In this document: positions 8,076 to 54,481 of the stretch, piece after piece
Layout of the letters: each line of letters begins with the position of its first letter
Position numbering within the stretch: position 1 is the first letter of the stretch
Assembly (NCBI RefSeq): GCF_904849725.1
Contig: NC_058521.1
Coordinates: forward strand, 557,524,176 to 557,588,175
Length of the DNA stretch: 64,000 nucleotides
DNA from: Hordeum vulgare subsp. vulgare
Lineage: Eukaryota > Streptophyta > Magnoliopsida > Poales > Poaceae
Direction: 5' to 3'
The notes under the pieces: generated by a model
Seen by the model: only the letters and a program-made list of their open reading frames with translations
What the model was told of the DNA's origin: nothing
The model's database searches: none
Program-made: the position numbers and the translations under genes

Positions 8076-8076
8076 G

Positions 8077-8092
8077 TGGCATCCGAGCCAGG
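8077..8092 (+). promoter_or_regulatory. Primer-binding site (initiator Met tRNA type, diverged)
   Basis: One base after the 5' LTR is TGGCATCCGAGCCAGG. The usual Copia PBS is TGGTATCAGAGC, so this copy differs at two positions within the first twelve bases while keeping the TGG start and GAGC. Confidence 0.8.
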
Positions 8093-12300: not shown

Positions 12301-13314
12301 AGTGGGAGCTCTGTAGCTTTCCTCGTACTATATGTGGATGACATATTATTGATGGGGAATGATATAGAGATGTTGGAGAGCATAAAGGCCTATTTGAACA
12401 AGAGTTTTTCAATGAAGGACCTTGGAGAAGCTGCATACATATTAGGCATCAAGATCTATAGAGATAGATCGAGACGCCTCATAGGTCTTTCGCAAAGTAC
12501 ATACCTTGACAAGATACTGAAGAAGTTCAATATGGAAAACTCAAAGAAAGGGTTCTTGCCAGTTTTGCAAGGTATGAGATTGAGTAAGACTCAGTCGCCG
12601 ACCACGGCAGCAGATAGAGAGAAGATGAGTTATGTCCCCTACGCTTCAGCCGTGGGCTCTCTAATGTATGCCATGCTGTGTACCAGACCTGATATAAACC
12701 TTGCGATAAGCTTGGTAGGGAGGTACCAAAGTAATCCCGGTGCGGAACACTGGACAGCGGTCAAGAATATCCTTAAGTACCTGAAAAGGACTAAGGAAAT
12801 GTTTCTCGTTTATGGAGGTGACGAAGAGCTCGTCGTAAAGGGTTACGTCGATGCTAGCTTCGACACAGATCCGGATGACTCTAAGTCACAAACCGGATAC
12901 GTATATGTGTTGAATGGTGGGGCAGTGAGCTGGTGCAGCAGCAAGCAAGAAGTCGTGGCAGCATCTACATGTGAAGCGGAGTACATAGCTGCTTCAGAAG
13001 CGGCTCATGAAGGAATTTGGATGAAGGAGCTCATCACCGACCTTGGAGTGGTTCCAAGCGCGTCGGGTCCTATGACACTCTTCTGTGATAACACTGGAGC
13101 CATTGCCATAGCCAAAGAGCCCAGGTTTCACCGGAAGACGAAGCACATCAAGCGCCGCTACAACTCCATCCAGGACCATGTCCAGAGTGGAGTGATAGAT
13201 ATTTGTAAAGTACACGCGGATCTGAATATTGCAGACCTGTTGACTAAACCTCTTCCACGAGCAAAACATGATCAACACCATGATGCTATGGGTGTTCGAT
13301 ACATCACAATGTAA
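9331..13314 (+). CDS. Copia gag-pol polyprotein, uninterrupted (1327 aa)
   Basis: Single ORF from ATG 9331 to TAA. Gag (about 1-250) is followed by a CCHC knuckle CFYCKGKGHWKRNC (253-266). The aspartic protease has its active site in VFDTGA (D302). The pre-integrase zinc-binding segment is near LWHCRLGH (438-445). The integrase core has D501 (HTD), D564 (SDRGGEY) and E600 (SERRN), with the D-35-E spacing. Reverse transcriptase has DVKTAFLNG and YVDD (1001-1004). RNase H has D1174, E1217 and D1253. One oddity is IYGLVQAS, where copia elements normally have IYGLKQAS: position 958 is Val instead of Lys. All other catalytic residues I can check are present, so this copy could be coding-competent apart from that substitution. 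Products would assemble virus-like particles in the cytoplasm and integrate cDNA in the nucleus. Confidence 0.97.
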   Translation: MSNVNLNFNAFLEKNKLKDDGSNYADWVRNLKLILEAAKKAYVLNAPLGDPPAPAAAQDVLNVWQARSDDYSLVRCGMLYSLETGLQRRFEQHGAYEMFQELKLVFQAHARVERYEVSDKFFSCKMEENSSVSEHILKMSGLHGRLTSLGVELPDDAIIDRILQSLPPSYKGFVLNYNMQGMEKTIPELYSMLKSAEVEIKKEHQVLMVNKTTSFKKGRGKKNFKKDDKAIAAPGKPDVGKKKKNGPKPETECFYCKGKGHWKRNCPKYLADKKAGNVKGICDIHVIDVYLTSARSSSWVFDTGAVAHICNSKQELRNKRRLAKDEVTMRVGNGSKVDVIAVGTLPLHLPSGLVLNLNNCYLVPALSMNIVSGSCLMRDGYSFKSENNGCSIYMSDMFYGHAPLVNGLFLMNLDRDVTHIHSVSTKRCKVDNNSPTYLWHCRLGHIGVKRMKKLHTDGLLESLDFESFDTCEPCLMGKMTKTPFSGIMERATDLLEIIHTDVCGPMNVEARGGYRYVLTLTDDLSRYGYIYLMKHKSETFEKFKEFQSEVENQRDRKIKCLRSDRGGEYLSHEFGTHLRKCGIVSQLTPPGTPQRNGVSERRNRTLLDMVRSMMSLTDLPLSFWGYALETTAFTLNRAPSKSVETTPYELWFGKKPKLSFLKVWGCDAYVKKLQPEKLEPKAEKCVFIGYPKETIGYTFYLRSEGKTFVAKNGSFLEKEFLSKEVSGRKVELDEVITPPLEQESSATQEVVPVMPTPTEEEVNDDDHEASVQVTTEPRRSTRVRSAPEWYGNPVMEIMLLDNGEPSNYEEAMAGPDSNKWLEAMKSEIGSMYENKVWTLVDLPDERRAIENKWIFKKKTDANGNVTVYKARLVAKGFRQIQGVDYEETFSPVAKLKSVRIMLAIAAFYDYEIWQMDVKTAFLNGNLKEELYMMQPEGFVDPKGANKVCKLQCSIYGLVQASRSWNIRFNEVIKAFGFIQVYGEACLYKKVSGSSVAFLVLYVDDILLMGNDIEMLESIKAYLNKSFSMKDLGEAAYILGIKIYRDRSRRLIGLSQSTYLDKILKKFNMENSKKGFLPVLQGMRLSKTQSPTTAADREKMSYVPYASAVGSLMYAMLCTRPDINLAISLVGRYQSNPGAEHWTAVKNILKYLKRTKEMFLVYGGDEELVVKGYVDASFDTDPDDSKSQTGYVYVLNGGAVSWCSSKQEVVAASTCEAEYIAASEAAHEGIWMKELITDLGVVPSASGPMTLFCDNTGAIAIAKEPRFHRKTKHIKRRYNSIQDHVQSGVIDICKVHADLNIADLLTKPLPRAKHDQHHDAMGVRYITM

Positions 13315-13334
13315 CTAGATTATTGACTCTAGTG

Positions 13335-13345
13335 CAAGTGGGAGA
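13335..13345 (+). promoter_or_regulatory. Polypurine tract for plus-strand priming
   Basis: CAAGTGGGAGA lies directly before the 3' LTR, as usual for plus-strand primers of Copia elements. Confidence 0.8.
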
Positions 13346-13346
13346 C

Positions 13347-15104
13347 TATTGGAAATATGCCCTAGAGGCAATAATAAAATGGTTGTTATCATATTTCCTT
13401 GTTCATGATAATCGTCTATCGTTCATGCTATAATAGTATTAACAGGAAACAGTAATACATATGTGAATGAATAGATCACAATGTGTCCCTAGCAAGCCTC
13501 TAGTTGGCTAGCTCGTTAGTCAATAGATGATCATGGTTTCCTGATCATGGACATTGGATGTCATTGATAACGGGATCACATCATTGGGAGAATGATGTGG
13601 TGGACAAGACCCAATCCTAAGCCTAGCACTAGATCGTATTGTTCGTATGCTAATGCTTTTCTAATGTCAAGTATCTTTTCCTTCGACCGTGAGATTGTGC
13701 AACTCCCGGATACCGTAGGAGTGCTTTGGGTGTATCAAACGTCACAACGTAACTGGGTGACTATAAAGGTGCACTACGGGTACCTCCGAAAGTGTCTGTT
13801 GGGTTGGCACGAATCGAGATCGGGATTTGTCACTCCGTGTGACGGAGAGGTATCTCTGGGCCCACTCGGTAGAACATCATCATGAGCTCAATGTGACTAA
13901 GGAGTTAGTCACACGATGACGTGCTACGGAACGAGTAAAGAGACTTACCGACAACGAGATTAAACAAGGTATAGGTATACCGACGATCGAATCTCGGGCA
14001 AGTTCTATACTGACAGACAAAGGGAATCGTATACGGGATTGATTGAATCCTTGACATCGTGGTTCATCCGATGAGATCATCGTGGAGCTAGTGGGAGCCA
14101 CCATGGGTATCCAGACCCCGCTGATGGTTATTGGCCAGAGAGGTGTCTCGGTCATGTCTGCCTGTCTCCCGAACCCGTAGGGTCTACACACTTAAGGTTC
14201 GATGACGCTAGGGTTATAGGGAATTGTTATACGAGATTACCGAAAGTTGTTCGGAGTCCCGGATGAGATCCAGGACGTCACGAGGAGCTCCGGAATGGTC
14301 CGGAGGTAAAGATTGATATATAGGACGGATGGTTTCGGAGACCGGAAGTGTTTCGGGCATCACCGGTAACGTACCGGGACCACCGGGACCACCGGAGGTG
14401 GTCCCGGGGGACCACCGAAGGGAGGCTGCGACCCCAAGAGGTAAGATGGGCTAAGTGGGGGTGGGAACCAGCCCCTAGTTGGGCTGGTGCACCTCCCCAC
14501 TCAGCCCATGGCGCAGGGGAAAGGAAAAGAGGGGGGGAACCCTAACTCAGGTGGGCCTTAGGCCCACCAGAGGGGTGCGCCACCCCTCCCCCTTGCCCTG
14601 GCCGCCACCCCTTCCCCATCTGAGGGCTGCCGCACCCCTTAGGGGTGGGAACCCTAAGGGCTGCGCCCCCTCCCTCTCCCCCTATATATAGATGAGGTTC
14701 GGGGCTGTTTGAGACACGGTTTAATCTCTCTCGCAGCCCTGCTCCTCTCCCTCCTCCTCGCTGCCGGCGCTTGGCAAAGCCTTGCCGGGAGACCTCGTCT
14801 CTCCACCAACACCACGCCGTCGTGTTGGTGGTCTTCTTCCCCAACCTCTCCCTCCTCCTTGCTGGATCAAGGTGCGGGAGACGTCACCGGGCTGCACGTG
14901 TGTTGAACGCGGAGGTGCCGTTGTTCGGCACTAGATCGGAATCGCTGCGAGTACGACTCCATCAACCGCGTTCTAGCAAACGCTTCCGCTTAGCGATCTT
15001 CAAAGGTACGAAGATGCTCTTACCCCTCTCTCGTTGCTGGTCTCTCCATAGGAAGATCTGAATAAGCGTAGGAATTTTTTTAATTAATGCTACGTTACCC
15101 AACA
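13347..15104 (+). repeat. 3' LTR of the Copia element (starts TA, not TG)
   Basis: Same length as the 5' LTR. The second base is A (TATTGGAAAT) where the 5' copy has TGTTGGAAAT. It ends CCCAACA followed by the TSD AGAAA. Other differences include the run near 15075 (GGAATTTTTTT against GGAAAATTTTG in the 5' copy). Confidence 0.95.
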
Positions 15105-17048: not shown

Positions 17049-18487
17049 CTGGCAAAAGGGCTCGTGCGTTGCAACGGGAGAAAAAAATTCATAATATTCA
17101 ATGATCATGATCACATTTTCTTGCATCACCGAGATACACTATCATCCTCAATTCCGTGAAATCAAGTATATTTTTTAAACTCGTAAACATATTTGAAATT
17201 ATGAATATTTTTCAAATTCATGATCACTTTTACAATCTTTTGACATTTTTGAAAATCAAGAACATTTTTGTTATTTTCAAACAACTTTTTAATTGTGAAT
17301 ATTTTTTTACAATTTTCCTCCATAGCACCTCCACCGTGTCCACCTTTGAAAAGGTTAAGCATGGCATCTTCTTTTGCGTGTAAATTTTCTTCCGATCTAT
17401 CTCTCTGCATAACCCCACAATTTTCTCCGTCTCCTGGTCTTTTTCTTTCCCTCGGTAATCTCCCCCATAATAATCCCACAAGTTTTCTTCCTATGGAGAG
17501 ACGGATTAACTCCATACAGATTTTCAGGGCTGCTTATATTGATATCAAGTGGTAAAGGTATATAAGTTGATGGTATTCTCTGGAAGGGAGCGAGGTGGGA
17601 CAATACAATACATATGTGCATTTTAATTATATAACAAATAGTAAAAGTGAGGGATGAAAAAAAGTGTGGCAACCAGGGATTGTTTTGTAAGGGAATAGGT
17701 GCTCTAGCCACCACAACTCGCGTCTGCTCCTAAATAATGAATTTTATATAAGCCCATGCTTGTACAACACAAAAGGTAAACTTGATTATATGTGGTTAAT
17801 TTATTAGCTAATATATGCCATGCTTTAAAAATATAAGGACATAAATGATAATTTTATGTATGAAAAAATTGTTGGCACGACCCACATGGGAGCTGCCGTC
17901 CCAAGGCGGCGCGGTCAACGCCAGGGCTGCGACGGGTCGATCTGGATCTGATCCAGGGCGCGACGGGGCGGAGGTGCTCGGCAAGCAGGCGGTTGCGGCG
18001 TCCGGAGGGACTGGCAGGCGAGGCGCGCGACACGGGCTGCTGCCGGCGCGAGCTGCGGCGGCACGAAGCGGCAGCGCAAGGAGAGGCACGGAGCGAGGCG
18101 AGGCACAGGAGGCAGGGCGGCGCGGCTGCTCGCGGGGGCGGCACTCCGGATCTGGGCGGAGCTCCGGAGGAGGCAGGGCTGGGGGCGACGGCTTCAGCAG
18201 CTCGCCGGCAACGGGATACGGCGTGGATCGGGGCCGGCAACCGGCGGGAGGAGCGGGTGGCGGCGCGGTGAGCAGATCAGGGGCTCGGGAGGAGTCGGTG
18301 GCTGCCTGCTGCCTTGGCCCGCCCCGCGACTCGAAATTTTACAGATGCAGGGGCTTTTTTGAAAAAACGAAACGTTTTTCCACTTAATGAAGGACCGTGG
18401 TTTTATTACGAAAAAACAGGGGGCATTTTTGCAAAACTACCACGACGGACGACCAGAACCTATATTTGCTTTATTAATAGGGAGAGA
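17049..18487 (-). mobile_element. Non-autonomous Helitron, minus orientation
   Basis: On the minus strand it begins TCTCTCCCTATTAATAAAGC (5' TC end at 18487). It ends with the hairpin-forming CCCGTTGCAACGCACGAG (plus 17061-17078), then CCTTTTGCCAG, close to the Helitron CTRR rule with CCAG in place of CTAG. The flanking bases are A (17048) and T (18488), as expected for insertion between A and T without duplication. No Rep/helicase gene is present. It lies inside an intron of the FAR1-like pseudogene. Confidence 0.75.
17868..18330. other. GC-rich block carried inside the Helitron
   Basis: This block is far richer in G and C than its AT-rich surroundings, and long frames are open on both strands (for example 17845-18387 on +). 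Such composition is typical of captured first exons or CpG-rich promoters of grass genes. I do not recognise a protein. The open frames probably reflect base composition. Confidence 0.4.
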
Positions 18488-39484: not shown

Positions 39485-39567
39485 CCATATGAATCCTACG
39501 TTGCCTGTCTACCATCAAAATCTTCCACTTGGCCAAGATCTCGCCTGGGCAATCACGGCGGCCGTGC

Positions 39568-41046
39568 ATGGACCTGCTCAGCGCGCTCCCCGACGATCTC
39601 CTCGTCACTATCCTGGATGGCCTTGACACCCGCTCCGCGCTCGCCACCGCCATCCTGGCCAGGCGCTGGGCGCGCCTCCCACGCCAGCTCCACGCCATCG
39701 ACTTTAGGGTCACGGACATGTTCCCGCTAGCGTTCCACGTGTCCGACGACTTGCTCGAGGAACACATGCGCCGCGCCATGGCCAGCTACAACGATGCCCT
39801 CGACAGCTTCACTGAAGCGGACGCCGACGAGGATGATAACGGAGGCTATATTCCCCGGCGCCTTGAGAGGCTCCGGCTCGAGTTCTTGGACCCGGACGAA
39901 CCCTTCTCCATTGACCGCCTGATCGCCAAGGCGGTCACCAATTGGGGCGTGGAGGACCTGGAGGTCCGCGTGAAGCGCTCACCCTGGGCGATGTGGTTTC
40001 GGCGTGTCGCCTACCTCTTCCCCCACGAGCTCCTCAACAACGAGTCGGTGCAACGCATCGGCTGCCTAACGCTCGGAGGTTTCGACGTCCTCCCGCCGCT
40101 GCACGAGTATGGCGGGCTAACTACACTCATCCTTCAGGACATCAGCCAGCCAATGACGGTCTACACAGGAGTGGTCTCCATGTGCACGTGGCTGCGGTCC
40201 GTCCACCTCAGGCGTTGCCGCGCCAAAACCTATGACGGCATACCCACACCCAGAGTCATGGAGGTGGACGCGCCGGCATCGGGGCTAAGGGAGCTCGTCG
40301 TCGACAGATGCTCGTTCTCTGTAATCCGGCTGCTCTCTCTCCCGGTACTGGAGCGCATGGAGTGCAGCCGCAGCTTCCTCATTCTGGCATTCGGCAACGT
40401 CCCGAGCCTCGGGCACGTAAACCTAGACAAAGGCTTCATCATCGTCGAGGGCGAGCCCTGGGACAGGTACCAGTACGACTACGCGCTGAACAAGTACTTG
40501 GCGGCGGTTATCCCAGCTGCCGCGACGGAGCTCGTCCTCCGGTTCATCGGCAGCTACAGGTGGGCCACCCCGTGGTTCGCTGGCGTGACGCCGTTCCCCG
40601 GCCTGCGAAGGCTGTTGGTGGAGGACGTGCCTTTCAACTGGGATCTATCGTGGCCGTGCCTCCTCCGCCTCCTCCGTGCAGCGCCCTCGTTGGAAGCCCT
40701 CCACGTCAGCATCGCCGGCTGCGAGGACTCGCGGGGGCGGCAGCCACATAATGTGTGGGTTCCGACCAACTTCCGGCACGCTCACCTCGAGGAGCTTGTG
40801 ATAGTCGGCTTCAAGCTGACGATGAGGCAGGCACGCCTCGTCACGTTTGCCATGAGGGTGTGCAAGAGGCTGCAGCGAGTCATCCTGGTGAAGGGCGGCC
40901 ACGTCGACGTCAGGGGGCTCTGCCGCGGCTGGGAGGTGGTGGTGTCGCCGGAGAGCGCGTGGAGCGACGAGGAGAAGGCGGCCACGGAGAAGGAGATCAG
41001 GACACCCGAATACTATAAGATACAAGGGCGCCTGGTGTTTGCATGA
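39568..41046 (+). CDS. F-box / LRR / FBD-like protein (492 aa)
   Basis: Intronless ORF from ATG 39568. An upstream extension to 39529 begins with TTG and is not a start. Residues 2-45 form an F-box (LLSALPDDLLVTILDGLDTR, then ...ARRWARLPRQLHAIDF), which binds Skp1/ASK1 in SCF ubiquitin ligases. A leucine-rich region follows (for example LGGFDVLPPLHEYGGLTTLI, SGLRELVVDRCSF, FPGLRRLLVEDVPF, APSLEALHVSI). The C-terminus (HLEELVIVGFKLTMRQARLV) resembles the FBD domain. The coding sequence is GC-rich, as usual for grass genes, and unlike its AT-rich surroundings. It has no disabling change. The substrate is unknown. It belongs to the large, fast-evolving grass F-box/LRR family. It is the only gene here that looks like a normal host gene. 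Confidence 0.9.
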   Translation: MDLLSALPDDLLVTILDGLDTRSALATAILARRWARLPRQLHAIDFRVTDMFPLAFHVSDDLLEEHMRRAMASYNDALDSFTEADADEDDNGGYIPRRLERLRLEFLDPDEPFSIDRLIAKAVTNWGVEDLEVRVKRSPWAMWFRRVAYLFPHELLNNESVQRIGCLTLGGFDVLPPLHEYGGLTTLILQDISQPMTVYTGVVSMCTWLRSVHLRRCRAKTYDGIPTPRVMEVDAPASGLRELVVDRCSFSVIRLLSLPVLERMECSRSFLILAFGNVPSLGHVNLDKGFIIVEGEPWDRYQYDYALNKYLAAVIPAAATELVLRFIGSYRWATPWFAGVTPFPGLRRLLVEDVPFNWDLSWPCLLRLLRAAPSLEALHVSIAGCEDSRGRQPHNVWVPTNFRHAHLEELVIVGFKLTMRQARLVTFAMRVCKRLQRVILVKGGHVDVRGLCRGWEVVVSPESAWSDEEKAATEKEIRTPEYYKIQGRLVFA

Positions 41047-42100: not shown

Positions 42101-42516
42101 TGATGGAAGGAGTATGGATTCTCAAGTATGTATGTTATTGAAGTTATGATATTTTTTGAAGTTGAAAAGCACAAAACCAGTGGGTCATGAACACTGTATT
42201 TTGTAGGAAGCACTTTTTATGTAACAAACCAGTCTGTCGTTTGTTGATGAATCGTGTCAAATCATGATAATTTGCTACATAATGCACCTTTTGTATAAAT
42301 GATAGATTTTATTGAGTCAAAATGAAGAATCAAGGGGATACAAACAAAATGTATGCACAACCAACCCGTGTGTAATTAGCATGCACACAGCCAATGCTAG
42401 CGCACACGTACAAAAGAACATCGATAAAAAAGCAAAGTCATACAAAACACGAGCTATGCCTAATCGGATGAAAATAATTAAGGCGATCAAAACAACGATC
42501 GGTAAACTACAACAAC
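42101..42516. other. Spacer up to the CACTA element; no gene seen
   Basis: AT-rich sequence. The last three bases (42514-42516, AAC) form the CACTA target-site duplication. Confidence 0.5.
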
Positions 42517-42900
42517 CAACAGTAGAAAAAGGGCCTTCTGTCCCGGTTCGTAAGAGCCTTCTGTCCCGGTTTCGGAACCGGGACAAAAAAGTCGTTACTA
42601 ATGCCCTTGGCCTTTAGTCCCGGTTCTTACATGAACCGGGACAGATGGGCCTCCACGTGGCCGGTGCGGCGAGCCCAGGCAGGAGGCCCTTTGGTCCCCG
42701 TTGGTGGCACCAACCGGGGCCAATAGGCATCCACATGTCAGCATTTCAGGTGCCGTTTTTTTTTTGAAAGGGGGGGGGTTTGGGGTTTTGGCGGGTTAAT
42801 TTAGGTGTTTCATATATTGTGTTAGCTAGCTAATTAATAGAGAGAAGTGTCCTCTCTTATCTCCGTGCTTGATCGACGCTACGTACTATACGTATAGAGA
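42517..42900. repeat. Left terminal and subterminal region of the CACTA element
   Basis: Contains several CCCGGTT/AACCGGG pairs forming short palindromes (for example 42540-42650), then a G-run (42770-42779), then AT-rich sequence. Such arrays are the expected binding sites of the CACTA accessory protein. Confidence 0.8.
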
Positions 42901-43090
42901 GGGCTAGACACGCTAGCTAGTAAGCAAATGAAGGAAACAACAGATCGTCATGAACATATGCAGACAGAAAGAAGTGATATCGACCACCTCTCCTTCTGTG
43001 AGAGATTGGTCGAACATCAAGTTCTCGTATATCTATCCGACGCTAGTGGCTACATATATACAACACAATTATCTCTTACAATATAATCTC

Positions 43091-44293
43091 CTAATTAAAA
43101 TCCAACTGATTAGGGTTCACATGACATTCTCCGTCTTTAGCGATCACGTGGTCAAGAAAGAATGCCGCCAATTCCTCTTGAATTCCTCGCATACGATCTG
43201 CTAGTAGGAGTTCATCCCGCATCCGAAATATCTAATTTGAAGAAGGGGGTCAATACATATATATGAATAAATAAAACTGAACACAAATGATGGTAATAAA
43301 ATGAAATTGTGAATATTATTATTTACGCACTTCATATTGTTTGTCAGAGTAGCCCCGCTCGGAGGTCGTGTGGCGGATGGACTCGCAAATGTAGTATCCA
43401 CAGTAATCATTCCCTGGTTCCTGCCACAACCACTCTTCAAGCATCCTAAATGGTATTGATGAAACTAGCGCTTGAATCACTAGGAGATGCGTGGAACATG
43501 CTACTATAGTACTTACTTTCGGGTGTCTAAATTGCAGCTTCTTCGGCAGTCCCGGAGTTTCTGAGGTGAATTTTTTCCAAACCATGCCAGACAAAGAAAA
43601 CAATTACTTGATATCAGGAAATGAACAAAGTTGCCGATACGGTGCGATATTGATCTATTTAACTTACTTCTATAGAATTTCAGTCATGACCGCATACTCC
43701 TTGGGATCTTTTCGTCTCGAGTCTAAGACGGTTACTATTCCCTGCTCAAGCTTAATATCTAGGAGAATATAGTGAAAGCTGCGCACGCATGCATAACTCA
43801 TCAATTACATTACTATAACCTTGACTAATAAGGGAAACCGAATATGCACAAGACAGTAACACTCACTGGAATTCGTAAGGGAAGAGTATTATAGCTTTGT
43901 TTTGATTCAATACAACGATTGTAGCAGGTTGGCCTCGGTATCTTTGGCCTGAAATTCAACCATAAATGCATCTACGAGATTTGTGTTAATGAATCCAATA
44001 TCACCGATTTGTCTTTTCTTCAATTCGACGATCTTCAATCTGCATAATATAGTGAGGATAATTAAAAATACATGCAATGAAACAGCTGACCTATATATAG
44101 AGACTTAATGACAGAAGTAGTACTAATTACAGGCAGTAGCAAGTGATCATTAATTTATCGAGGGCCATTAGATTGAAAAACGGAAAGAACTCCTCAAATG
44201 GAACATTCAACAGTTCAATTCCAACGAGGTCATGCTCCTCTCTAACTCTCATCAGCGTCAAAATATTACTCCCCTCAGACTCTCTGCAGGTTT
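43091..44293 (-). pseudogene. Ulp1 (C48) protease-like 3' part of the CACTA gene
   Basis: Exons on minus include FHYILLDIKLEQG (His) followed by VTVLDSRRKDP (Asp) from 43779, VWKKFTSETPGLPKKLQF at about 43570-43505, and NDYCGYYICESIRH (Cys codon at 43400-43402) up to about 43320. The C-terminus DRMRGIQEELAAFFLDHVI ends at a TAG at 43091-43093. The H-D-C residues are those of SUMO-protease-like enzymes commonly encoded by plant CACTA and MULE elements. Several exon junctions cannot be drawn cleanly and stops occur between pieces (for example after VMTEIL near 43675), so this copy is probably inactive. It continues the gene at 44294-46840. Confidence 0.65.
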
Positions 44294-46840
44294 TCATGTA
44301 CTAATCATGGAACATCGCATCATTGTTGTTAGAGATCTTTCATCTTTGACGAGAGGCTTCCCGTACACGTATTTGTGTTCGTCCACCTCCAAGAAATCAA
44401 AATGTGCATCGTCGGGCAGGTAATCTGCAGGATAGGTACCGGGAAACAAGATCCCCGGATGATTAGCGACGATATCGCTAGACACCTTGAGCGGGGGGAA
44501 CGATTGGTTCGCTTGTTCGCCGAGCTGGGCAACTTTTTTCCCAGCTCGTCGTTCTGCTAACCTTTGACCACTGACAGTACTTCCCAACCGCTCCGCTTCG
44601 ATAAATGAGTTTGTAATAATGCGCTCATAGTTTCCTTTCGCCGGAGACTTTGGTGGTTTCTTCAGGGCAGCCAGAGTACGCTTCGCTTTTACCGAATCTA
44701 TCTTCTCCTCTGGAGGTGGATGTTTCTTTGCTTTCACCCCTTCAAAGTAGTTTTTCACTTCGGCTTGCATGATCTTCGTGTTTTCCTCCTGGCTCCTCTC
44801 GTATGATAACTTCTCTAGAGTCTTCAGAGAAGGACCGTATTTGTATTGCCTGCCTCTGGCTGTACTGCTAGACGCCGGAGCGGCTGCGGCTTTCTTTCCT
44901 TTCTTACGAGGCGGAGTAGAAGGACGACGCGCCGGAGCAGCCGGAGCGGCGGCGGGTCTCTTCCGCCCTTGTTGACGAGGCGGAGAAGGAGGAGGCTGGC
45001 TGCTCGGGCGCGCCGATGCAGGCGGAGAAGGAAGCGGAGTGCCGCCATGCGCCGGAGAAGGAGACTGAGTGCCCTGATCACTCGCCGGAGGAGGAGGCGG
45101 AGTGACCTGACTCACCGGAGGAGGAGGAGGAGGCGAAGGCATCCAATTCGGAAGGTTGATGAGCTCCTTCCGCCATAGGCATGAAGTCTTCAGAGAAGAA
45201 CCCAACCGAATCTCGCCTTCACCCGTAGGGTGGTCAAGCTCAAGGTCCTCAAAATCCGTCCGTTATTTGATCCACCATCACCCTAGCATATCCTTCTGGA
45301 ATCGACCAGCCGTGGTAGGTTGTGCCAGGTTCAGTAGGTAAAACAGCTCCAATAGCCGCCTTGACTTTCAATGTCATCCATCGCGCCATAAGGTGGCAAT
45401 GTTGAGACTCCGTGATAGCATCCACGGGGTAGCTAGCAGGAGGCGTGAAGACAGGCTCCAGCTGCTGAGTCTACTCGGTGGAAGCCATGCTGCTTCTCCG
45501 CTGAGATGGCGGGGTAGCTTCAAGGGAAGCTTTGGCAGGTCGTTTGCTGCGATCTGCTTCTCGTTCCTCTAGCCCTTGTACCCTTTCGTGCAGCGCCTGC
45601 ATTTGGCTATGCTCCACTTTCTTCCTCCTCTCCTGGCATTTGTAACCCCCTGCGTCCGGAAACCCAACCTTCCACAAAACCGAGCCTCGCGTGCCTCATG
45701 TCCGTCCAGGGTGCTCAAGATTCCCGAGGGCCATTGTGAGCTCGTCCTTCTCTCTGTCTGGAACGAACGTCCCTTGCTGCGCTTTCTCAATATACTCCTT
45801 AAGCCTTGTGACGGGTATTCGTAGTTGCTCTTCCGTCCAAACGCACTTCCCTGATACAGGGTCCAAGGTTCCGCTAACCCCGAAGAACCAAGTCCGACAA
45901 CGGTCTGGCCAGTTCAATGTCTCTGGTTCGACCCCTTTAGCAATCAGGTCAATCTCAGCCTTGTCCCACAAAGGTCGGGCTTTGAGGTAGCCACCTGACC
46001 CCGTGCGATGGTGATGCTTCTTCTTTGCAGCATTTTTCTTGTTTTTCGTTGACATCTTCTTACTCTTTTCCGATGTCTTGTGGGCCACAAATGCGGGCCA
46101 GTGATCTCTGATCTTCTCAAACTGGCCGGTGAATTCTGGTGTAATTTCTTTGTCGACAAACATTTTCAGCTCATTCTTCCACCTCCTGAATAGGTCTGCC
46201 ATCTTCTTAAGAGCATGAGACTTGATCAATTGCACTATAACTGGCTTCTCCGGATCCTCCTCTGGTGGTAGGGTGAAATTTGCCTTAAGCGTTGTCCAAA
46301 GATCTTTTTTCTGCATATCGGAGACATAAGACACCTCAGGGTCTTCCTTCTTAGGCTTTAACCATTGCTGGATACTGATCGGGATCTTGTCCCTAACAAG
46401 AACCCCGCACTAATTAGCAAATGCTTCCTTTGTCTGATACGGTTCAATCGGCTTGTCATCGCGCGCGATTGCTGTGATCTCAAACCTTTCATCTGAGCAC
46501 AACTTTTTCTTCGAGCCTCGTCTCTTTACCGAAGTTGTGCTCGATACAGAGTGCTAGAAAAAGAAGAAAGATGAGATTTAATTAATATGTGTACATATGA
46601 AAACAATGAATGCATCAATTAGCTAGTCAGCACAAGCTTAACTAATATATATACCTGGCCGGACTCGGTTCGATCACCGGAGCCATCATAATCATAGCCT
46701 TCTTCTTGTACCAGCATTAATGGGTCACCGGAGCCATCATAATCATAGCCTTCTTCTTCACCCTGTCCTTCCAGACCATCGGTGTCGTTGAGAAACGACA
46801 AGACAAAATCACTTCCTTTTGCGATTATTCCCCCCAACAT
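44294..46840 (-). pseudogene. CACTA Transposase_24 (TnpA-like) and proline-rich part of the same gene
   Basis: The likely start ATG is at 46840 (MLGGIIAKGSDFVLSFL). Its exon ends at donor 46655 and has a duplicated acidic EEGYDYDGSGD segment. The next part (about 46550-45700) includes IPISIQQWLKPKKED and DLFRRWKNELKMFVDKE, and resembles the En/Spm Transposase_24 family, a DNA-binding accessory protein. A coiled-coil-like stretch follows (ALHERVQGLEEREADRSKR, 45600-45540). Then comes a Pro/Ala-rich linker (45180-44840) and a 300-codon frame ending YKYGPSLKTLEKLSYERSQ and onward. Stops at about 46410 (after KEAFAN), 45471 and elsewhere, plus frame changes near 45700, show decay. The promoter is probably the TATA at 48960. 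Confidence 0.6.
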
Positions 46841-46979
46841 CTCTTATGTTGCTTTGTCTGGTGGTGCTCCATAGTTTCTGCAAATATTTACAACATGGCA
46901 ATTATTATTCAAACATGACAGATGGATATATTAGTGGCAAATGTAGAACTAGCTAGCTAATCATAATAAGGAATCATAT

Positions 46980-47400
46980 TAGTGGCCTCGACGCTGCTTC
47001 TCTAGGGTTTGGGGTGGCCTCGGCAACGCTTCAAGGGTTTGGGGTGGTCTCGACGACAACGCTCTTTTAACTTGGTAAATTTGGGTGGCCTCGAGAGAGT
47101 TTGTCGGGTAGGGGCGCGGCGGGAGGGGGTAGGAGACCAACATCGTTTTTTCTAGGGTTTGGGTGTCCTCGAGAGTTTTGGTCGTGCGAGAGGGCCGGGG
47201 GGGGGGTGCTCCCATGGTATAAGTTATCACGGTTGAGAGGGGGTATATATATCGACCGCCCCTCATGTCGAAGTTATCCGGAAGGGGGTTATATCGACAA
47301 TGACGACATACATACATGGGAAAATAATGTTATCGGGGAGGGGGTATATCGACCCCCCCTCGTGTTGAAGTTATCGGGAGGGGGTATATCAACAACGACA
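46980..47400. repeat. G-rich minisatellite
   Basis: Irregular repeats of GGGTTTGGGGTGGCCTCG (46980-47170), then GAGGGGGTATATCGAC and GAAGTTATCGGGAGG units (47240-47400). Non-coding, within the CACTA intron or spacer. Confidence 0.75.
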
Positions 47401-47700
47401 TACCCGATAAAAAATAAGAAGACAAAAGAAGAAATAAAAAGAGGAGAAGAAGAATGGAATAGAAGAGAAGCGATCGAAGAAAAAAAAGAAAAAAAGGAGC
47501 ATAAGAAAGGAATAGAGAAGAAGAAGAAAAAATAGAATATTTCTATTTTTTTTTCTTTTTTTCTTCTTCTTCTCTATTCCTTTCTTCTTCTCCTCTTCTT
47601 TTTCTTCTTTTTTCCTCTTCTTATTTATTTCTCCTCTTCTTCTCCTTTCTTCCTCTTCTTCTTTTCCTTTTTCCTCTCATTCTTTTTCTTCTTCTTCCTT
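47400..47700. repeat. Polypurine tract switching to polypyrimidine, forming an inverted repeat
   Basis: 47405-47535 is nearly all purine (GAAGAAG-type), and 47540-47697 nearly all pyrimidine. AAAGGAATAGAGAAGAAG... (47506-47532) is the exact complement of 47557-47583, so the switch point is a hairpin with 27-bp arms. Confidence 0.85.
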
Positions 47701-48749
47701 ATCTTCCTAGCGGATAACTTCTATGTGAGTATGTGATATAACCCCCTCCGAATAACTTCGACATGAGGGTCTTGGGAGCTATGCGGAGGAGGGAGCGGCA
47801 GTGGCGTGGTGGACCGGGGGGATCTCCTGGTGCGTCACCAGAGCCATCACAAATACGTTGTCTATTTGTGGTGTCACAATCCCCACGTGGTCGGATTAAC
47901 ACTTTTTTGGAAATGTCACATAGAATTTCTGTGAGTATTTTAATATTTTGTTACCGTACTAGACTTTCTTCCTTTTTATTAGTCGGCACGATCATGTGAG
48001 AAATTTCATCACGTGAGCTTTAATTATTAGCACATACATTAAGAAAATAATCTATTATATATAATAAGCTATTGCCATCCTCTTTACATAATATCCCTAT
48101 ATTTATATCTGTATCTCTATCCATATGTACATTTATCTCTATCTATATCTTTATCTATGTATATCCATCATGAGGTATCTTCAATCACTTGTTGCAATTG
48201 CGTACACATCACATTGAACAACGGTTGGCACTCCATTCAGTGTAGCATAGATCATATAAGAAGCGAGTTCATACAACAGAGAATAACCTACAAAGGACAA
48301 TATTTTGAACCTATTTTAAATACCATCCACCAAATGATAAAAAATATTGGCAATACTTGTTAGCGGATACAAATTAGACGCTACATGGATAATTGACGTT
48401 ACAAAACACGCAAACCGGCATTGAAAAATACATAGATTCAACAGTGAAGAACCCATATGTTGTGAGATTCCAGTGAAATACATCACGTGCATGTGTTAGG
48501 TTAATCAATTCCAGTTGGCATAGAAGATTTCTTGCATGACATAAGATGGGGCCAATCAAATCCTGCTAGAAAGAAATACATGGCGGGAGATGAACCGAGC
48601 ACATGCGTAGGATCATTCTTATCGCGAACAATGCGGTATAAACTAGGCTGGGGGCGCCTGAGCGCGGCGTGGGGAGTGGAGGGGCGCCAGAGCGTAGCCC
48701 GACGGGAGGAGGCCGGAGCTAGAGGAGGAGAGGGAGGAGTGGCGGCGGA
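47701..48749. other. Spacer or intron of the CACTA gene
   Basis: AT-rich sequence with TATCTCTATC repeats near 48100-48170. No coding motif. It lies between the putative 5' exon (48750-48945) and the first coding exon. Confidence 0.4.
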
Positions 48750-48966
48750 TCTCACCGTGGGAAGCAGAGGAGGGCCGGGCTGCTCGTCGATGGGTAGATG
48801 GAGGAGGCGCAGGCGGCCGACGTAGGTGGCGGCAACGACGAGGACAACTTTGGGGGGCGGCAGTGACTCTGGCAGCCTGGCAGCATCGAGGGCAGGGGCG
48901 GCGTCGACGTCGGGATCGAATAGAGAGAGGGGGAGAGATTAAAATTTCTAAACTGCCGCTTATATA
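48750..48966 (-). promoter_or_regulatory. Leftward Pol II promoter and 5' exon of the CACTA gene
   Basis: Minus strand: GCTATATAAGCGGC gives a TATA box at 48966-48960. About 200 bp of C/G-rich 5' leader follow, ending in a donor (TTCCCACG|GTGAGATCC near 48755). It immediately adjoins the TTTAGTCCCGGTTGG array. Confidence 0.6.
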
Positions 48967-49319
48967 GCTCCACCTTTAGTCCCGGTTGGTGGCACCAACC
49001 GCGTCTAATGGGGGGCATTGGTCCTGGTTGGTATCACCAACCGGGACTAAAGGTCTCTTTTCAGCAGCCCGAAGGGCGGGAAGCAGAGGCCGTTGGTCCC
49101 GGTTGGTGGCACCAACCGGGACTACAGGGGGGCATTGGTACCGGTTGGTGTCACCAACCGGGACCAAAGGTCTCTTTTCAGCAGCCCGAAGGGCGGGAAG
49201 CAGAGGCCTTTGGTCCCGGTTGGTGGCACCAACCGGTACCAATGCCCCCCTTTAGTCCCGGTTGGTGCCACAAATCGGGACCAAAGGCCTTGCACTGGCG
49301 CGGTGCGGTGCTATGTTTA
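48967..49319. repeat. Internal CACTA subterminal-type repeat block
   Basis: Five or more alternating copies of TCCCGGTTGGTGGCACCAAC and complements, with GGTCTCTTTTCAGCAGCCCG repeated at about 49045 and 49165. Each unit is a short palindrome. This block is normally terminal, so its internal position suggests that the element was rearranged or fused. Confidence 0.8.
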
Positions 49320-49536
49320 GTCCCACCTCGCTAGCCGAGAGGGGCTCGGAGTGGTTTATAAGCCCTGCTGAACCAACCACTTCGAGCTCCTCTCTACTGC
49401 AAGCTTACGGGCCTAAAATCATTCTATGTGCTTGTGGCCCTATTGGGCCTACTGCGGGCCTGCATCCTGGCCCTAGTAATGGGTTTCTATTCGTATACAG
49501 GCCGTGGTGGCCTTGTAGGTGGCACTATTTTTTTTT
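49320..49536 (+). ncRNA. Candidate Pol III-type unit 1 (USE, TATA, T9 terminator)
   Basis: GTCCCACCTCG (49320-49330) matches the plant upstream sequence element RTCCCACATCG at 10 of 11 positions. Exactly 24 nt later is TTTATAA (49355-49361). In plants this spacing is that of Pol III snRNA promoters such as U6, while Pol II snRNA promoters have about ten more. A start about 25 nt downstream (about 49385) and a run of nine T (49528-49536), with no earlier TTTT, would give an RNA of about 145 nt. The transcript is rich in GGGCCTAC/GGCCC words able to pair locally. Expression is inferred, not seen. Confidence 0.5.
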
Positions 49537-49928
49537 AAAATCCAGTTTTTTTGCTTTCTTTTTTGTTTCTAGTTACTTATTTATTTTCTTTTATGATAAT
49601 TCTTTTTGCTATTAAAGTTTATAACAAAATTCTAATTACTTATTTATTTTCTTTTATGATAATTCTTTTTTGCTTTTAATGTTTTGAATAGAAAATACTT
49701 TGATAATTTTAGTTGCATAAATTCTATATAAGTTTAGTTTCAATAATACTAGAGGTTTATAAAAGATTTTTAGTTGATTCCTTTAGTACCAGTTCAAAGG
49801 CACTTACAAAGGCATTTTATTTGGTACAGGTTCTAAGGCTGGGGACCCACGAGCACCTTTTAGTACCGGTTCGTCGCATGAACCGGTAAAAGAGTTTTTT
49901 AATTGATTCTTTGTGCAGCTATTTTTTA

Positions 49929-49970
49929 GTCCCACCTCGCCAAGCGAGAGGCACTTGCAGCGGTTTATAA
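49929..49970 (+). promoter_or_regulatory. USE + TATA of candidate Pol III unit 2
   Basis: GTCCCACCTCG at 49929-49939, then 24 nt, then TTTATAA at 49964-49970. The USE, TATA and spacing are identical to unit 1, although the 24-nt spacers differ in sequence. That is what selection on spacing, or descent with drift of the filler, would leave. Confidence 0.6.
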
Positions 49971-49992
49971 CCCTTAATGTAGAGACGATGAA

Positions 49993-50170
49993 GGGAGAGG
50001 CGCAGTGCTCACCTGCATGTTGCTTAGCTTCAAGCCTTAAGGAAGTGGTGTAGACTGCACGGAGCTCTCAGGGTTTCGGACAAAAACTACACATAGCTCC
50101 GTGCAGTCTACACTATTTCCTCAAGGCGTGAAGCTAAGCAATGTGCAAGTGAGCATTGCGCCTCTCTTTT
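49993..50170 (+). ncRNA. Candidate Pol III hairpin RNA with 72-bp arms
   Basis: Arms 49995-50066 and 50095-50166 are inverted repeats matching at about 64 of 72 positions, with a 28-nt loop. The expected start, 23-26 nt after the TATA box, falls at the GGG of 49993-49995, the base of the left arm. The right arm ends at 50166 and TTTT follows at 50167-50170. No TTTT occurs inside. The whole predicted transcript (about 175 nt) is therefore one long hairpin, a possible Dicer-like substrate. It lies within a CACTA element, directly after CACTA-type repeats (TTTTAGTACCGGTTCG). Function is inferred; I do not recognise it as a catalogued miRNA. Confidence 0.55.
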
Positions 50171-50176
50171 ATTTTT
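50167..50176 (+). terminator. T-run terminator after the hairpin
   Basis: TTTTATTTTT directly follows the right arm. Four or more T on the non-template strand is the Pol III termination signal. Confidence 0.5.
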
Positions 50177-50269
50177 AATAACTTATTACAACTTCGGACT
50201 TCTTGTTTTATTAAAGTTTATTTTATTTTATTTGTTTTCTACTTACATCATTAATTTTCATCCCTTTCT

Positions 50270-51935
50270 GACTTCATATGTTATTTTTCATGCATTTAAT
50301 GATTATTTTGAGCTATAAGACCCTGAAATTGAAAAGCATTTCAAATGAACTCTTAAAAGGTTCCAAGTTGGCATGGTATCATCATCTCATCCACATCGCA
50401 TGTGCGAGAAAGTTGAGAGGATTACGACAAAAACTGGATGCACTTCGTGTACAAAACGGACATTCTCTTTCGAAGTATCAGGATTTCATACGGAAACTCG
50501 TCTGTTACAAAGGGATTTCATTTTTTTGAACTTATTTGAATTCCATAGTGTTTCTGTGTTCAAAATGCACCATTCAAAGCCACATCATCAATTCACAACC
50601 CTTCCTGACTCCATTTGTTATTTTTCATGCATTTACTGATTATTTTGAGCTATAAGACCATGAAATTGAAAAGCATTTGAAAAGAACTCTGAAAAGGTTC
50701 CAAGTTGACATGGTATCATCATTTCACCCACATAGCATGTGCGAGAAAGTTGAGAGGGTTACGGAAAAAATTGGATGCACTTCGTGTATAAAACAGACAA
50801 TCTATTTCGAAGTATCACGGTTTCATACGGAAACTCGTCTGTTACAAAGGGATTTCATTTTTTGAACTTATTTGAACTCCATAGTTTTTCTGTGTTCAAA
50901 ATGCACCATTCAAAGCCACATCATCAATTTACAACCCTTTCTGACTTCATTTGTTATTTTTCATGCATTTATTGATTATTTTGAGCTATAAGACCATGAA
51001 ATTGAAAAGCATTTGAAATGAACTCTGAAAAGGTTCCAAGTTGGCATGGTATCATCATTTCACCCACATAGCATGTGCGAGAAAGTTGAGAGGGTTACGG
51101 CACAACTGGATGCACTTCGTGTACAAAACGGACAATCTGTTTTGAAGTGTCAAGGTTTCATACGGAAACTCGACTCTTACAAAGGGATTTCATTTTTTGA
51201 ACTTATTTGAACTCCATAGTTTTTCTGTGTTCAAAACGCACAATTCAAAGCCACATCGTCAATTTACAACCCTTTCTGACTTCATTTGTTATTTTTCATG
51301 CATTTACTGATTATTTTGAGCTATAAGACCATGAAATTGAAAATCATTTAAAATGAACTCTGAAAAGGTTCCAAGTTGGCATGGTATCATCATTTCACCC
51401 ACATAGCATGTGCGAGAAAGTTTAGAGGGCTACGGCAAAAACCGGATGCACTTCGTGTAGAAAACGGACATTCTCTTTTGAAGTATTAGGGTTTCATACG
51501 GAAACTCGTCTGTTACAAAGGGATTTCATTTTTTTGAACTTATTTGAACTCCATAGTTTTTGTGTGTTCAAAATGCACCATTCAAAGCCACATCATCAAT
51601 TTACAACCCTTTCTGACTTCATTTGTTATTTTTCATGCATTTACTGATTATTTTGAGCTATAAGACCATGAAATTGAAAAGCATTTGAAATGAACTCTGA
51701 AAAGGTTCCAAGTTGGCATGGTATCATCATTTCACCCACATAGCATGTGCAAGGAAGTTGAGAGGGTTACGGCAAAAACTGGATGCACTTCGTGTACAAA
51801 ACGGACAATCTGTTTGGAAGTATCAGGGTTTGATACGAAACTCGTCTGTTACAAAGGGATTTCATTTTTTGAACTTATTTGAACTCCATAGTTTTTGTGT
51901 GTTCAAAATGCACCATTCCAAGCCACAGACCTCCT
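50270..51935. repeat. 336-bp tandem array, five copies
   Basis: The word AGCTATAAGACC(A/C)TGAAATTG starts at 50311, 50648, 50984, 51319 and 51656, 335-337 bp apart. Units contain CATGGTATCATCATTTCACC and GAAACTCGTCTGTTACAAAG. Short frames in them are not genes. The array lies directly upstream of the MURA remnant. Confidence 0.92.
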
Positions 51936-52535
51936 CGCAAACCAAGGAAGACTAGGATAAGGGCACAGTCTGAAGGAAAAGGCCTAAGAGGCAGGAGAAA
52001 GAAGTGATCTCGCTGTGGAAGACTAGGACACCATGGGACCCACTTCAAATAGTCCATTGATCCTGCTTTTGGAGAAGATGAGCATTGGTGTGCTGATAAT
52101 GCTGGAACAGAAGCTCCAGAATCTGCTCAAGCAACTGCCCAAACTGAAGCTCCTGCTGCTCCTGGCTCTCCTGCTGCTGCTAGTTCTCCTCAACCTGCTA
52201 CTAGCTCTTGTGCTGCTCCTGGCTATCCTCCACCTGCTACTAGCTCTCCTGCTGCTAGTTCCTCTAAGGTTCTTGATACTGATCTTGCTAGGTATGCAAT
52301 ATATTGTACTGCATGTACATGCATTAATTATGTAGTTATTTTTGCTGACTGATCTTGATTGTGTTCATGTTTCTCAGCCCAAAGAAGAATTACAAAATGC
52401 CAGATTACAAGAGGTACAAAGTGGGGTTCACCACAGAAGAAGGCGAAAGGCGGCATGCAATCAACTGTAAACACAAGGAGCAAGGCTGCTAATCCTGCAG
52501 CCAACACAAGGAGCAAGATGAGCAAACTGAATTGA
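51936..52535 (+). pseudogene. MURA (Mutator transposase) C-terminal remnant
   Basis: One frame reads RPPRKPRKTRIRAQSEGKG, then a degenerate CCHC knuckle (SRCGRLGHHGTHFK) in which the first Cys codon is a TGA (52005-52007) and the last Cys is replaced, then a TAG (52050-52052). Next comes SIDPAFGEDEHW, an Ala/Pro/Ser-rich linker and a donor (GCTAG|GTATGC, about 52290). A final exon after TTTCTCAG ends SPQKKAKGG...NTRSKMSKLN. The order 'RKK-rich, knuckle, PAFGEDEHW, low complexity, NTRSK' is typical of C-termini of plant MURA-like proteins. The catalytic and SWIM parts are absent; the 336-bp array is in their place. Confidence 0.6.
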
Positions 52536-52589
52536 TCATGTTGTGAATCTATTCTGTTTAATGTTAGATTTTGTCAAACAACTGTTGGT

Positions 52590-52676
52590 TTGTAATGCTG
52601 GAGTGTGAACTGCTGTTTAATGCTGGAGTGTGAACTGCTGTTTAATGCTGGAGTGTGAACTGGTGTTTAATGTTAG
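52590..52676 (+). repeat. Short tandem repeat, about 26 bp, three to four copies
   Basis: AATGCTGGAGTGTGAACTGC and TGTTT units repeat directly (52593, 52619, 52645) in the presumed 3' UTR of the MURA remnant. A related single copy lies near 52712. Confidence 0.8.
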
Positions 52677-52976
52677 ATGAATTGATCATGTTGTGGAATC
52701 TATTTTGTTTAATGCTGGAGTGTGTTGTGAAATCATATGATTGCTGACTTTTGCCCCTAAATATCTTGCTAGGTGCTCAAAATTGCACCTTTTGCTATCA
52801 TTCTGTGTTGAACTACCAGGCATTGGTGAGAATTTTAACACAACACATGATATCCATTACATCTAGGGCACAACATTACATTTTCTCAAGTTCACAACAG
52901 TGCACAAATGATAGAATTACATCTAGAGCACAACACACTAGCAGACACATAACACACACACTGCCACTTAATTGGC

Positions 52977-53643
52977 TTACTTTGACCAAATAGAAACTAA
53001 ACTAGCCACAATGCTGATGCCAAGAACAAAGAGAAAACCCATTGTTTCCATGAGCTCATTCCTTTTCTTCAACTTCAATTGCATTTTCTTGTTTTCATTG
53101 TTTAGATCCATAACCTTCTTCTCCATCCTACTAGGTTTGATCCAACTACGTTCAAGGCCACCATGGAGCTCCTCAAAAGCTTGCCCCACTAGCTCAGTGG
53201 GAGGGGGGTCAAACCAAACAACCCAATCACACTCATCAGGAAGCTGTTAAATCAGAGTTCACATAATTAGGTGAAATTCATAAATTTGCAATAAATCGAT
53301 GAAAACAGAGTACCAAATGATGTTTTGAGGAATTACATCAAATGGACAACCACAAAACCTTCTTCCCATGCTTGCTCCACCCCAAGAAACACGGCGAGCA
53401 GGAATTAGCCCATACCCCGGGCAACGGTGATTCGAGCGCTCCTCAAGGCCGTAGAAACTTGGATTGGGAATGAAAAACTCGGATTGGAACTGCACAATCC
53501 CGCAGCCATCCACCTACGAGCCAGAAAGGCGCATATTACGGCCCATCCCGCGAAATCCTAGATGAGAAATCCCCAAATCCAATGTCAACCGAAAATCCAA
53601 ATTGACTTACCTCACTGTCTGCGGAGGAGCTTGCAGACGACAT
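52977..53643 (-). CDS. zf-GRF domain protein with C-terminal coiled coil and membrane segment (158 aa, three exons)
   Basis: Minus strand exons are 53643-53611 (MSSASSSADSE, donor GAG|GTAAGT), 53513-53337 (acceptor TCGTAG, donor GAT|GTAATT) and 53243-52977 (acceptor TTAACAG, stop after IWSK). All junctions are in phase, giving 159 codons including the stop. Exon 2 carries CPGYGLIPARRVSWGGASMG followed by RRFCGCPF, and exon 3 begins LPDECDWVVWFD. Together they form the C...GR.F..C...C.W..W pattern of zf-GRF, a single-stranded nucleic-acid-binding finger. A Lys/Asn-rich coiled coil (MEKKVMDLNNENKKMQLKLK) and a hydrophobic segment (FLFVLGISIVASLVSIW) follow. A TATA box lies at 53887-53895 in the CACTA terminal region. 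The family is common in grass transposons and its role is unknown. Confidence 0.75.
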
Positions 53644-53879
53644 TGCGGACGTACATATGGACGTGCCCCAGCGGTGAAAACGGGGACGGGGCATGACGGA
53701 CAACTAAATCTAGACAAATCTCGGGAAAAATGGAGCTTCGAGGTCGAGCTTCGAGAGGAGAAAGCTTAACTAGTGTGGCTCGGGCATTTCATCGAACACC
53801 TCATGTGCATAGGAGGTGAGCTAGAGCACCCAAATGCCTTCCCCTCGTCGGCCAGAAAAAATAGGGTGCTCAGCTGCGG

Positions 53880-54191
53880 CGATGGGTATATATAGGAAAA
53901 TTATTTGTCCCGGTTTGTGGCATAAGCCGGGCTAAAGCCCCCCTTCTATACCGGTTCATGGCACGAACCGGTAACAATGGATGTGGACCAGGAGCGCGGC
54001 CCATTGGTCCCGGTTCATGCCTAGAACCGGGACAAATGGGTCCAGACGAACCGGGACCAATGCCCAAGAGGCCCTGGCCGGCCCCCTGGCCTCATGAACC
54101 GGGTCTAATGCCCCCCATGGGTCCCGGTTCGTGAAGAACCGGGACTAATGGGCTGGCCAGGCCCGAACCAAAGCCCTGTTTTCTACTAGTG
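53880..54191 (-). promoter_or_regulatory. Right CACTA end and promoter of the zf-GRF gene
   Basis: Minus-strand TATA (CTATATATA, 53895-53887) lies just inside an array of CCCGGTT.../GAACCGG palindromes that ends at the terminus CACTAGTAGAAAACAGGGC (54191-54173). Transcription from here would run leftwards into the zf-GRF gene. Confidence 0.65.
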
Positions 54192-54481
54192 AACGACTAT
54201 ATCCGCACTAGCCATCTATTCATACTACAAGGGAAACGAGAACAGTCCTTCAACGCTCAAACGCCGTCGTCATCGGATCCAACCACTGAAAGCCAGACTC
54301 TATATATTCATGTTGAATAACAAGTCCGAGCACAGCCGAGCAATGCCTTCGACGAGCTAACAACGCAAAAAAACATTGACATTATCAGGTATAACTAATT
54401 ACTGTCCAAAGTGGATATTGTGAGAAGGAAGCATTCCTTCCCCTTTGTAAAGGAGGCACATGGTATTTAGTAGCTCACACG
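54192..54481. other. Spacer between two CACTA elements; no gene seen
   Basis: 290 bp of unremarkable sequence. The first three bases (AAC) are the right TSD of the 42517-54191 element. Confidence 0.5.

Follow-up and report, generated by a model that had tools for sequence, protein, structure and literature searches.

A barley CACTA transposon with two tandem candidate U3/U6-type Pol III units, one of which is predicted to specify a hairpin RNA

Mu killer of maize is a transposon-derived hairpin RNA locus, a rearranged MuDR copy that matches the transposase gene. In the parasitic dicot Cuscuta campestris, the interface-induced MIRNA loci (Hudzik et al., 2023) are described as USE-bearing loci with Pol III spacing and a poly-T end, from which both transcripts and miRNAs have been reported (PMC10226582, PMC10745700). 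Within the literature searched, in the portions of it that were available, USE-driven hairpin RNA genes have previously been described only in this parasitic dicot, which is weak evidence for the novelty of a similar arrangement elsewhere. As for CACTA transposons, wheat elements that match the small RNAs tae-miR1117 and tae-miR1131 are reported (PMC3398953, PMC2996936), and the sequence of tae-miR1117 is given in Table 4 of PMC3398953. The available sections of the wheat and barley CACTA accounts name no Pol III promoter (PMC3398953, PMC2996936, PMC5738225), and those of the two wheat accounts name no dedicated hairpin gene (PMC3398953, PMC2996936). No report of a Pol III promoter within a CACTA element was found among the literature matches listed, in the available portions of a literature poor in subscription journals.

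The promoter rules to which the present locus can be compared have been worked out for plant snRNA-type genes. The spacing between the USE and the TATA box is reported to be among the main determinants of recognition by Pol III (PMC11961915), the distance from the USE to the start is given as 54-55 bp for Pol III and 66-67 bp for Pol II (PMC10745700), and the plant TATA box is placed at -28 to -30 (PMC9845283). For the barley U3 promoter, the USE is given as TCCCACCTCG, located 25 bp before the TATA box, which is located 23 bp before the start (PMC6181210). The monocot-specific promoter element (MSP, RGCCCR) is described as raising the strength of monocot Pol III promoters and is usually positioned 30-130 bp upstream of the USE (PMC9845283, PMC6181210).

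The window, by which we mean the whole 64-kb stretch of barley DNA analysed here, contains a CACTA element of 11,675 bp (42517-54191), bounded by the TSD AAC at 42514-42516 and 54192-54194. The right end is intact (...GCCCTGTTTTCTACTAGTG), and the left end is degenerate (CAACAGTAGAAAAAGGGCC) and reads CAACA, so that the terminal CACTA...TAGTG repeats and the 3-bp TSD of the superfamily are present with 2 changes in the left CACTA motif. A second CACTA start was identified at 54482, 290 bp past the end of the first element. Positions 42521-42771 are 71% alike to this second start, and the right-end 70 nt of the first element are 74% alike to it; no USE with at most 1 mismatch was found from 54482 to the end of the window. 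A transposase fragment on the minus strand (45696-46409) matched the Pfam profile Transposase_24 with an E-value of 4e-6 and a score of 27.4 bits, slightly short of the curated cut-off of 28.7. It has 371 protein relatives at E ≤ 0.001, of which at least 39 contain PF03004 (among the 120 best listed), and it would place the element with the En/Spm-type transposases of the CACTA superfamily, at a profile score below the cut-off. No relatives of the transposase were found in viral_contigs or genome_contigs.

Within this element we identified two tandem units with a plant type-3 promoter layout, referred to as unit 1 and unit 2. A USE, defined as RTCCCACATCG or the barley U3 variant TCCCACCTCG, is present at 49320 and at 49929. 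Both are exact copies of GTCCCACCTCG on the plus strand (49320-49330 in unit 1 and 49929-49939 in unit 2), and each is followed after 24 nt by the TATA box TTTATAA (49355-49361 and 49964-49970, respectively). The last ten bases of the USE in both units are the USE published for the barley U3 Pol III promoter, including its C variant. The spacing of 24 nt agrees with the 23-25 nt or so of Pol III promoters and is within 1 nt of the spacing reported for barley U3, in which the TATA box follows TCCCACCTCG after about 24-25 nt and the start lies about 23 bp after the TATA box (PMC6181210). By the published geometry, unit 2 is predicted to start at the GGG in 49993-49995 on the plus strand, 53-55 nt after the USE and 29-31 nt past the first T of the TATA box. 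The unit 1 promoter copy (49316-49364) is located 609 bp upstream of the unit 2 copy and is 82% identical to it, with 0/20 differences in the USE and GGTTTATAA as compared to 8/22 in the spacer (p 0.004). Palindromic repeats, which are also the feature shared with the wheat elements matching tae-miR1117 and tae-miR1131 (PMC3398953, PMC2996936), were found upstream of each of the two units: an array with a 117-bp period and 2.7 copies (48973-49287) lies directly upstream of unit 1, and a repeat with 2 mismatches from tae-miR1117 (49861-49884, plus strand) lies just upstream of unit 2. It is these palindromic repeats, and not the unit 2 hairpin described below, that tae-miR1117 resembles. The resemblance, taken together with the U3-like USE, is in keeping with a grass element, probably one of Triticeae.

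Unlike in the barley U3 gene, no MSP box was found near the CACTA units, and the predicted body is a hairpin in unit 2 and an unassigned RNA in unit 1. Each of the three promoters in the window was scanned over 120 nt on its upstream side, and RGCCCR was absent there in either direction; the third promoter is located on the minus strand outside the CACTA element (17560-17601) and consists of GTCCCACCTCG at 17601 and TTATATA after 25 nt. The absence of the MSP box counts against strong promoter activity; since the box is described as raising efficiency, its absence is a fault in strength and not a strict exclusion. The roughly 190 nt that follow the third promoter are unstructured (z 0.02) and contain no Rfam family above the gathering score. 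No match to the promoter pattern was found in viral_contigs or genome_contigs, nor to the tandem-repeat pattern in viral_contigs.

The body of unit 2 is occupied by a hairpin, with a 5' arm at 49995-50066, a terminal loop region of 28 nt at 50067-50094 and a 3' arm at 50095-50166, from which pairing reaches 50170. The arms, both read on the plus strand, are 72 nt each and 89% complementary, and the base of the hairpin is no more than 2 nt from the start that the USE and TATA box predict. It is followed by a candidate Pol III terminator, TTTTATTTTT (50167-50176, plus strand), with TTTT at 50167-50170 and TTTTT at 50172-50176. All of these parts, that is the USE, the 24-nt spacer, the TTTATAA box, the two arms, the loop and the TTTT, had been named in the original prediction and were recovered at the positions given here, and its statement that no TTTT lies inside the hairpin was confirmed for 49993-50166. 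The promoter copies at 49320 and 17601 did not figure in it. As anatomy, its proposal that a CACTA transposon holds a Pol III-type promoter in line with a hairpin and a T-run is thereby borne out, and the geometry fits the published values, as judged from the DNA. As in the Cuscuta loci, which appear to be the nearest precedent found, unit 2 combines a hairpin at Pol III distance downstream of a U-snRNA-type USE with a poly-T end. The Cuscuta loci belong to a parasitic dicot and have reported miRNAs, whereas unit 2 is a candidate locus, a repeat in a grass CACTA element, and it differs from them also in its long, near-perfect stem and in the C variant of the USE.

The fold of 49990-50176 has a predicted energy of -136.2 kcal/mol, as compared to a mean of -54.5 (sd 4.5) in 200 shuffles (z -18.2). 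In the extended register, an RNA from the plus strand has 66 Watson-Crick pairs, 7 G-U pairs and 3 mismatches (73/76 paired), and an RNA from the minus strand has 66 Watson-Crick pairs, 2 G-U pairs and 8 unpaired positions (68/76 paired); the better pairing points weakly to an RNA from the plus strand. No known RNA family was found in the window at the gathering score in an Rfam search, and membership of such a family was rejected. Matches of the hairpin to miRNA families stayed below threshold, the best with an E-value of 0.001 and 31.8 bits where the gathering score is 211, and are taken as generic stem matches. An origin of the arms from the promoter spacer was also rejected, as the similarity was equalled by 36/1000 shuffles on one strand and 59/1000 on the other. 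Six strings from the hairpin arms were not found in the published texts searched.

It had been argued that promoter, start point, hairpin base and terminator line up in a manner that is hard to get by chance, and the components were compared with chance one by one. The USE by itself is no rarer than chance, since 3 were found in the whole window with at most 1 mismatch against 2.3 expected. All 3 exact USE copies in the window have a TATA-like box, at 24, 24 and 25 nt downstream, and in 60 Markov simulations the mean number of USE-TATA composites was 0 with at most 1 mismatch, and 0.32 (maximum 2) with at most 2 mismatches, so the composite is rarer than the USE alone. The T-run is weak evidence, because TTTT is common in the T-rich local flanks: a TTTT begins within 0-2 nt at 16% and 23% of positions in two local flanks, although over the CACTA element as a whole the figure is 3%, and no TTTT occurs in 39% of its 172-nt stretches.

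The predicted RNA body of unit 1 is about 145 nt (49384-49527, plus strand, start around 49384-49386) and contains no TTTT; it is followed by a T9 run (49528-49536), the candidate terminator. Both units thereby end in at least four T, T4 and T5 after unit 2 and T9 after unit 1. The unit 1 body differs from that of unit 2, has no long hairpin and is weakly structured (z -2.6; 3/200 shuffles fold as well). In unit 1, a 20-bp inverted repeat (49337-49356 with 49375-49394, z -7.7) spans both the TATA box and the predicted start.

To compare the units with related copies, open frames that cross them were searched against a protein database, which yielded nine relatives from short public contigs (ENA): six for unit 1 (P0124-P0129, at E ≤ 0.1, of 34 candidates) and three for unit 2 (P0121-P0123, at E ≤ 1, of 8 candidates). 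Among the unit 1 relatives, the USE frame FSPTS is unchanged in 6/6 and the 24-nt USE-TATA spacing is retained in 6/6, while the TATA frame is retained in 5/6 (altered in P0128), all as seen in protein translations, in which silent changes are hidden and copies with open frames are favoured. Over the six relatives, codon changes amount to 0/30 in the USE (five codons, 49316-49330), 1/12 in the TATA box (two codons), 12/48 in the spacer and 20/42 between the TATA box and the start. The promoter core is accordingly conserved at the level of the translation, with 1/42 codons changed against 32/90 in the spacer and TATA-to-start segments (p 9e-6), in relatives that are not independent of one another and that were retrieved with protein search words favouring conserved stretches. 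In the first 11 codons after the predicted start, a boundary chosen with the alignment in view, 6/66 codons are changed against 20/42 between TATA and start (p 1.4e-5). Changes over 49382-49470 as a whole amount to 58/180 codons, so only the first part of the unit 1 body is conserved. For the inverted repeat of unit 1, 19-20/20 pairs are compatible in the relatives, and swapping the arms also gives a mean of 19.4/20. P0129 contains in addition a second promoter copy in inverted orientation, which lies 144 nt upstream and has the same spacing (score 33.4 against a maximum of 4.9 in 500 shuffles), so divergent promoter pairs exist. Between these two promoters of P0129, apparent translated palindromic repeats were recognised by eye.

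The layout of USE, spacing and hairpin is retained in two of the three unit 2 relatives. In P0121, the USE frame and the 24-nt spacing are kept, with one codon fewer at the TATA box, which may be shortened; both arms at the base of the hairpin are kept and the distal stem is missing. The N-terminal part of P0121 matches the 3' arm of the window (50132-50174) with a score of 49.0 against a shuffle maximum of 26.2. In P0123, the USE frame, the spacing and a TATA-compatible frame are kept together with a hairpin that contains indels, and the partner of the stem base falls beyond what the visible frame covers. Self-complementarity exceeded the maximum of 300 shuffles in both, in segments that were picked after inspection: 25.4 against 21.8 for residues 46-90 of P0121, and 23.6 against 22.5, a narrow margin, for residues 1-45 of P0123. 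In the distal stem of P0123, 17/17 positions are compatible with pairing at the best of 8 offsets, likewise picked after inspection, and the changes include one forced double change from G-C to A-T and three forced changes in the 5' arm with an ambiguous partner; paired changes between arms can also come from gene conversion. In P0122, the USE frame is changed, and there is no recognisable TATA box or hairpin. That the layout is kept in some related copies suggests that it is more than a chance arrangement.

In our view, these features are probably best accounted for by a grass CACTA transposon that carries two tandem Pol III units of the U3/U6 type, the second of which would make a hairpin RNA. 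Each unit would comprise the USE GTCCCACCTCG followed after 24 nt by TTTATAA, a start about 23 nt further on, a TTTT-free body and a T-run, where Pol III recruitment, start and termination are predicted from published promoter rules. The RNA of unit 2 would then be a near-perfect hairpin of about 175 nt, from the predicted start to the T-run, and the unit could be regarded as a natural counterpart of the laboratory U6-shRNA cassette. If the hairpin were cut by Dicer-like enzymes, the resulting small RNAs might be directed against further copies of the hairpin locus, or against targets in the host that lie beyond this 64-kb stretch. A role in silencing or counter-silencing, as originally proposed, did not gain support: none of the 21-mers in 49993-50170 has a second match in the window, on either strand, with at most 4 mismatches, and an action on the element's own transposase is therefore unsupported within the 64-kb window. 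Since 9/20 shuffled hairpins were likewise without a 21-mer match in the window at this threshold, the result contains no enrichment. Mu killer matches a transposase gene, whereas the unit 2 hairpin matches nothing else in the window with at most 4 mismatches.

It is possible, if rather unlikely, that the units are relics. An ancestor of the family would have picked them up, perhaps from a U3 gene, and common descent would explain their intact look in a silenced element from which no hairpin RNA is made. Such a history would be in line with the lack of a transcript on record for the units, with the lack of an MSP box within 120 nt upstream, with the one unit 2 relative in three that is without an intact promoter, and with the report that the small RNAs matching wheat CACTA elements are mainly 24 nt long and lie at the element ends in about half of the cases (PMC2996936). 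Against it stand the hairpin retained in P0123 with one forced compensatory change and the difference between the core (1/42) and the flanking spacers (32/90 codon changes), which indicates that decay has not been uniform. The inverted repeats could also function as DNA, as cruciforms or protein-binding sites like other CACTA palindromes, so that the hairpin would be no RNA gene. The element does contain many palindromes, one of them the 20-bp repeat that straddles the TATA box of unit 1, but the unit 2 hairpin matches only itself, and not the palindromic repeats, in a blastn search of the window and begins at most 2 nt from the start expected by the USE and TATA geometry, which makes a purely DNA-level role improbable.

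Another origin of the hairpin would be a MITE that inserted by chance just 3' of the TATA box. The size of 172 nt and the long arms are MITE-like, and MITE-derived hairpins are reported to be common sources of wheat small RNAs (PMC3398953); we nevertheless consider such an insertion very improbable, as two diverged relatives have a hairpin in this position and as a search for a TSD of 3-10 bp, with left boundaries in 49983-50000 and right ends up to 6 nt away from the paired position, gave none. Transcription from a Pol II snRNA-type promoter would draw on the same USE and TATA elements, which also serve Pol II snRNA genes (PMC9845283). It is hardly credible given the distance of 53-55 nt from USE to start, which fits the 54-55 of Pol III and not the 66-67 of Pol II (PMC10745700), and given the 24-nt USE-TATA spacing kept in 6/6 unit 1 relatives.

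The reading with two Pol III units in the CACTA element, if true, would show transposons to be capable of carrying Pol III genes dedicated to hairpin RNA, and the promoter units could serve as natural short Pol III promoters in cereals. A broader proposal, which we put forward tentatively and would sooner doubt than accept, is that CACTA transposons of grasses carry self-contained Pol III short-hairpin genes that are kept by selection, and that the small RNAs made from them affect other elements or host genes in trans, with an advantage to the element or to its host. Under this proposal, the double-stranded RNA would be independent of Pol II and Pol IV, because U3-type promoters are used.

Several other features were observed in the window. 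Shortly 3' of the hairpin unit there are five tandem copies of a 337-bp repeat (50245-51927) with 93% matches. A Copia retrotransposon (6320-15104) with a 1327-aa open frame has terminal repeats of 1.76 kb (6320-8075 and 13349-15104) that are 99.4% identical, from which a recent insertion may be inferred. A 517-aa open frame on the plus strand (39493-41046) has weak F-box and AtMIF1-type LRR matches.
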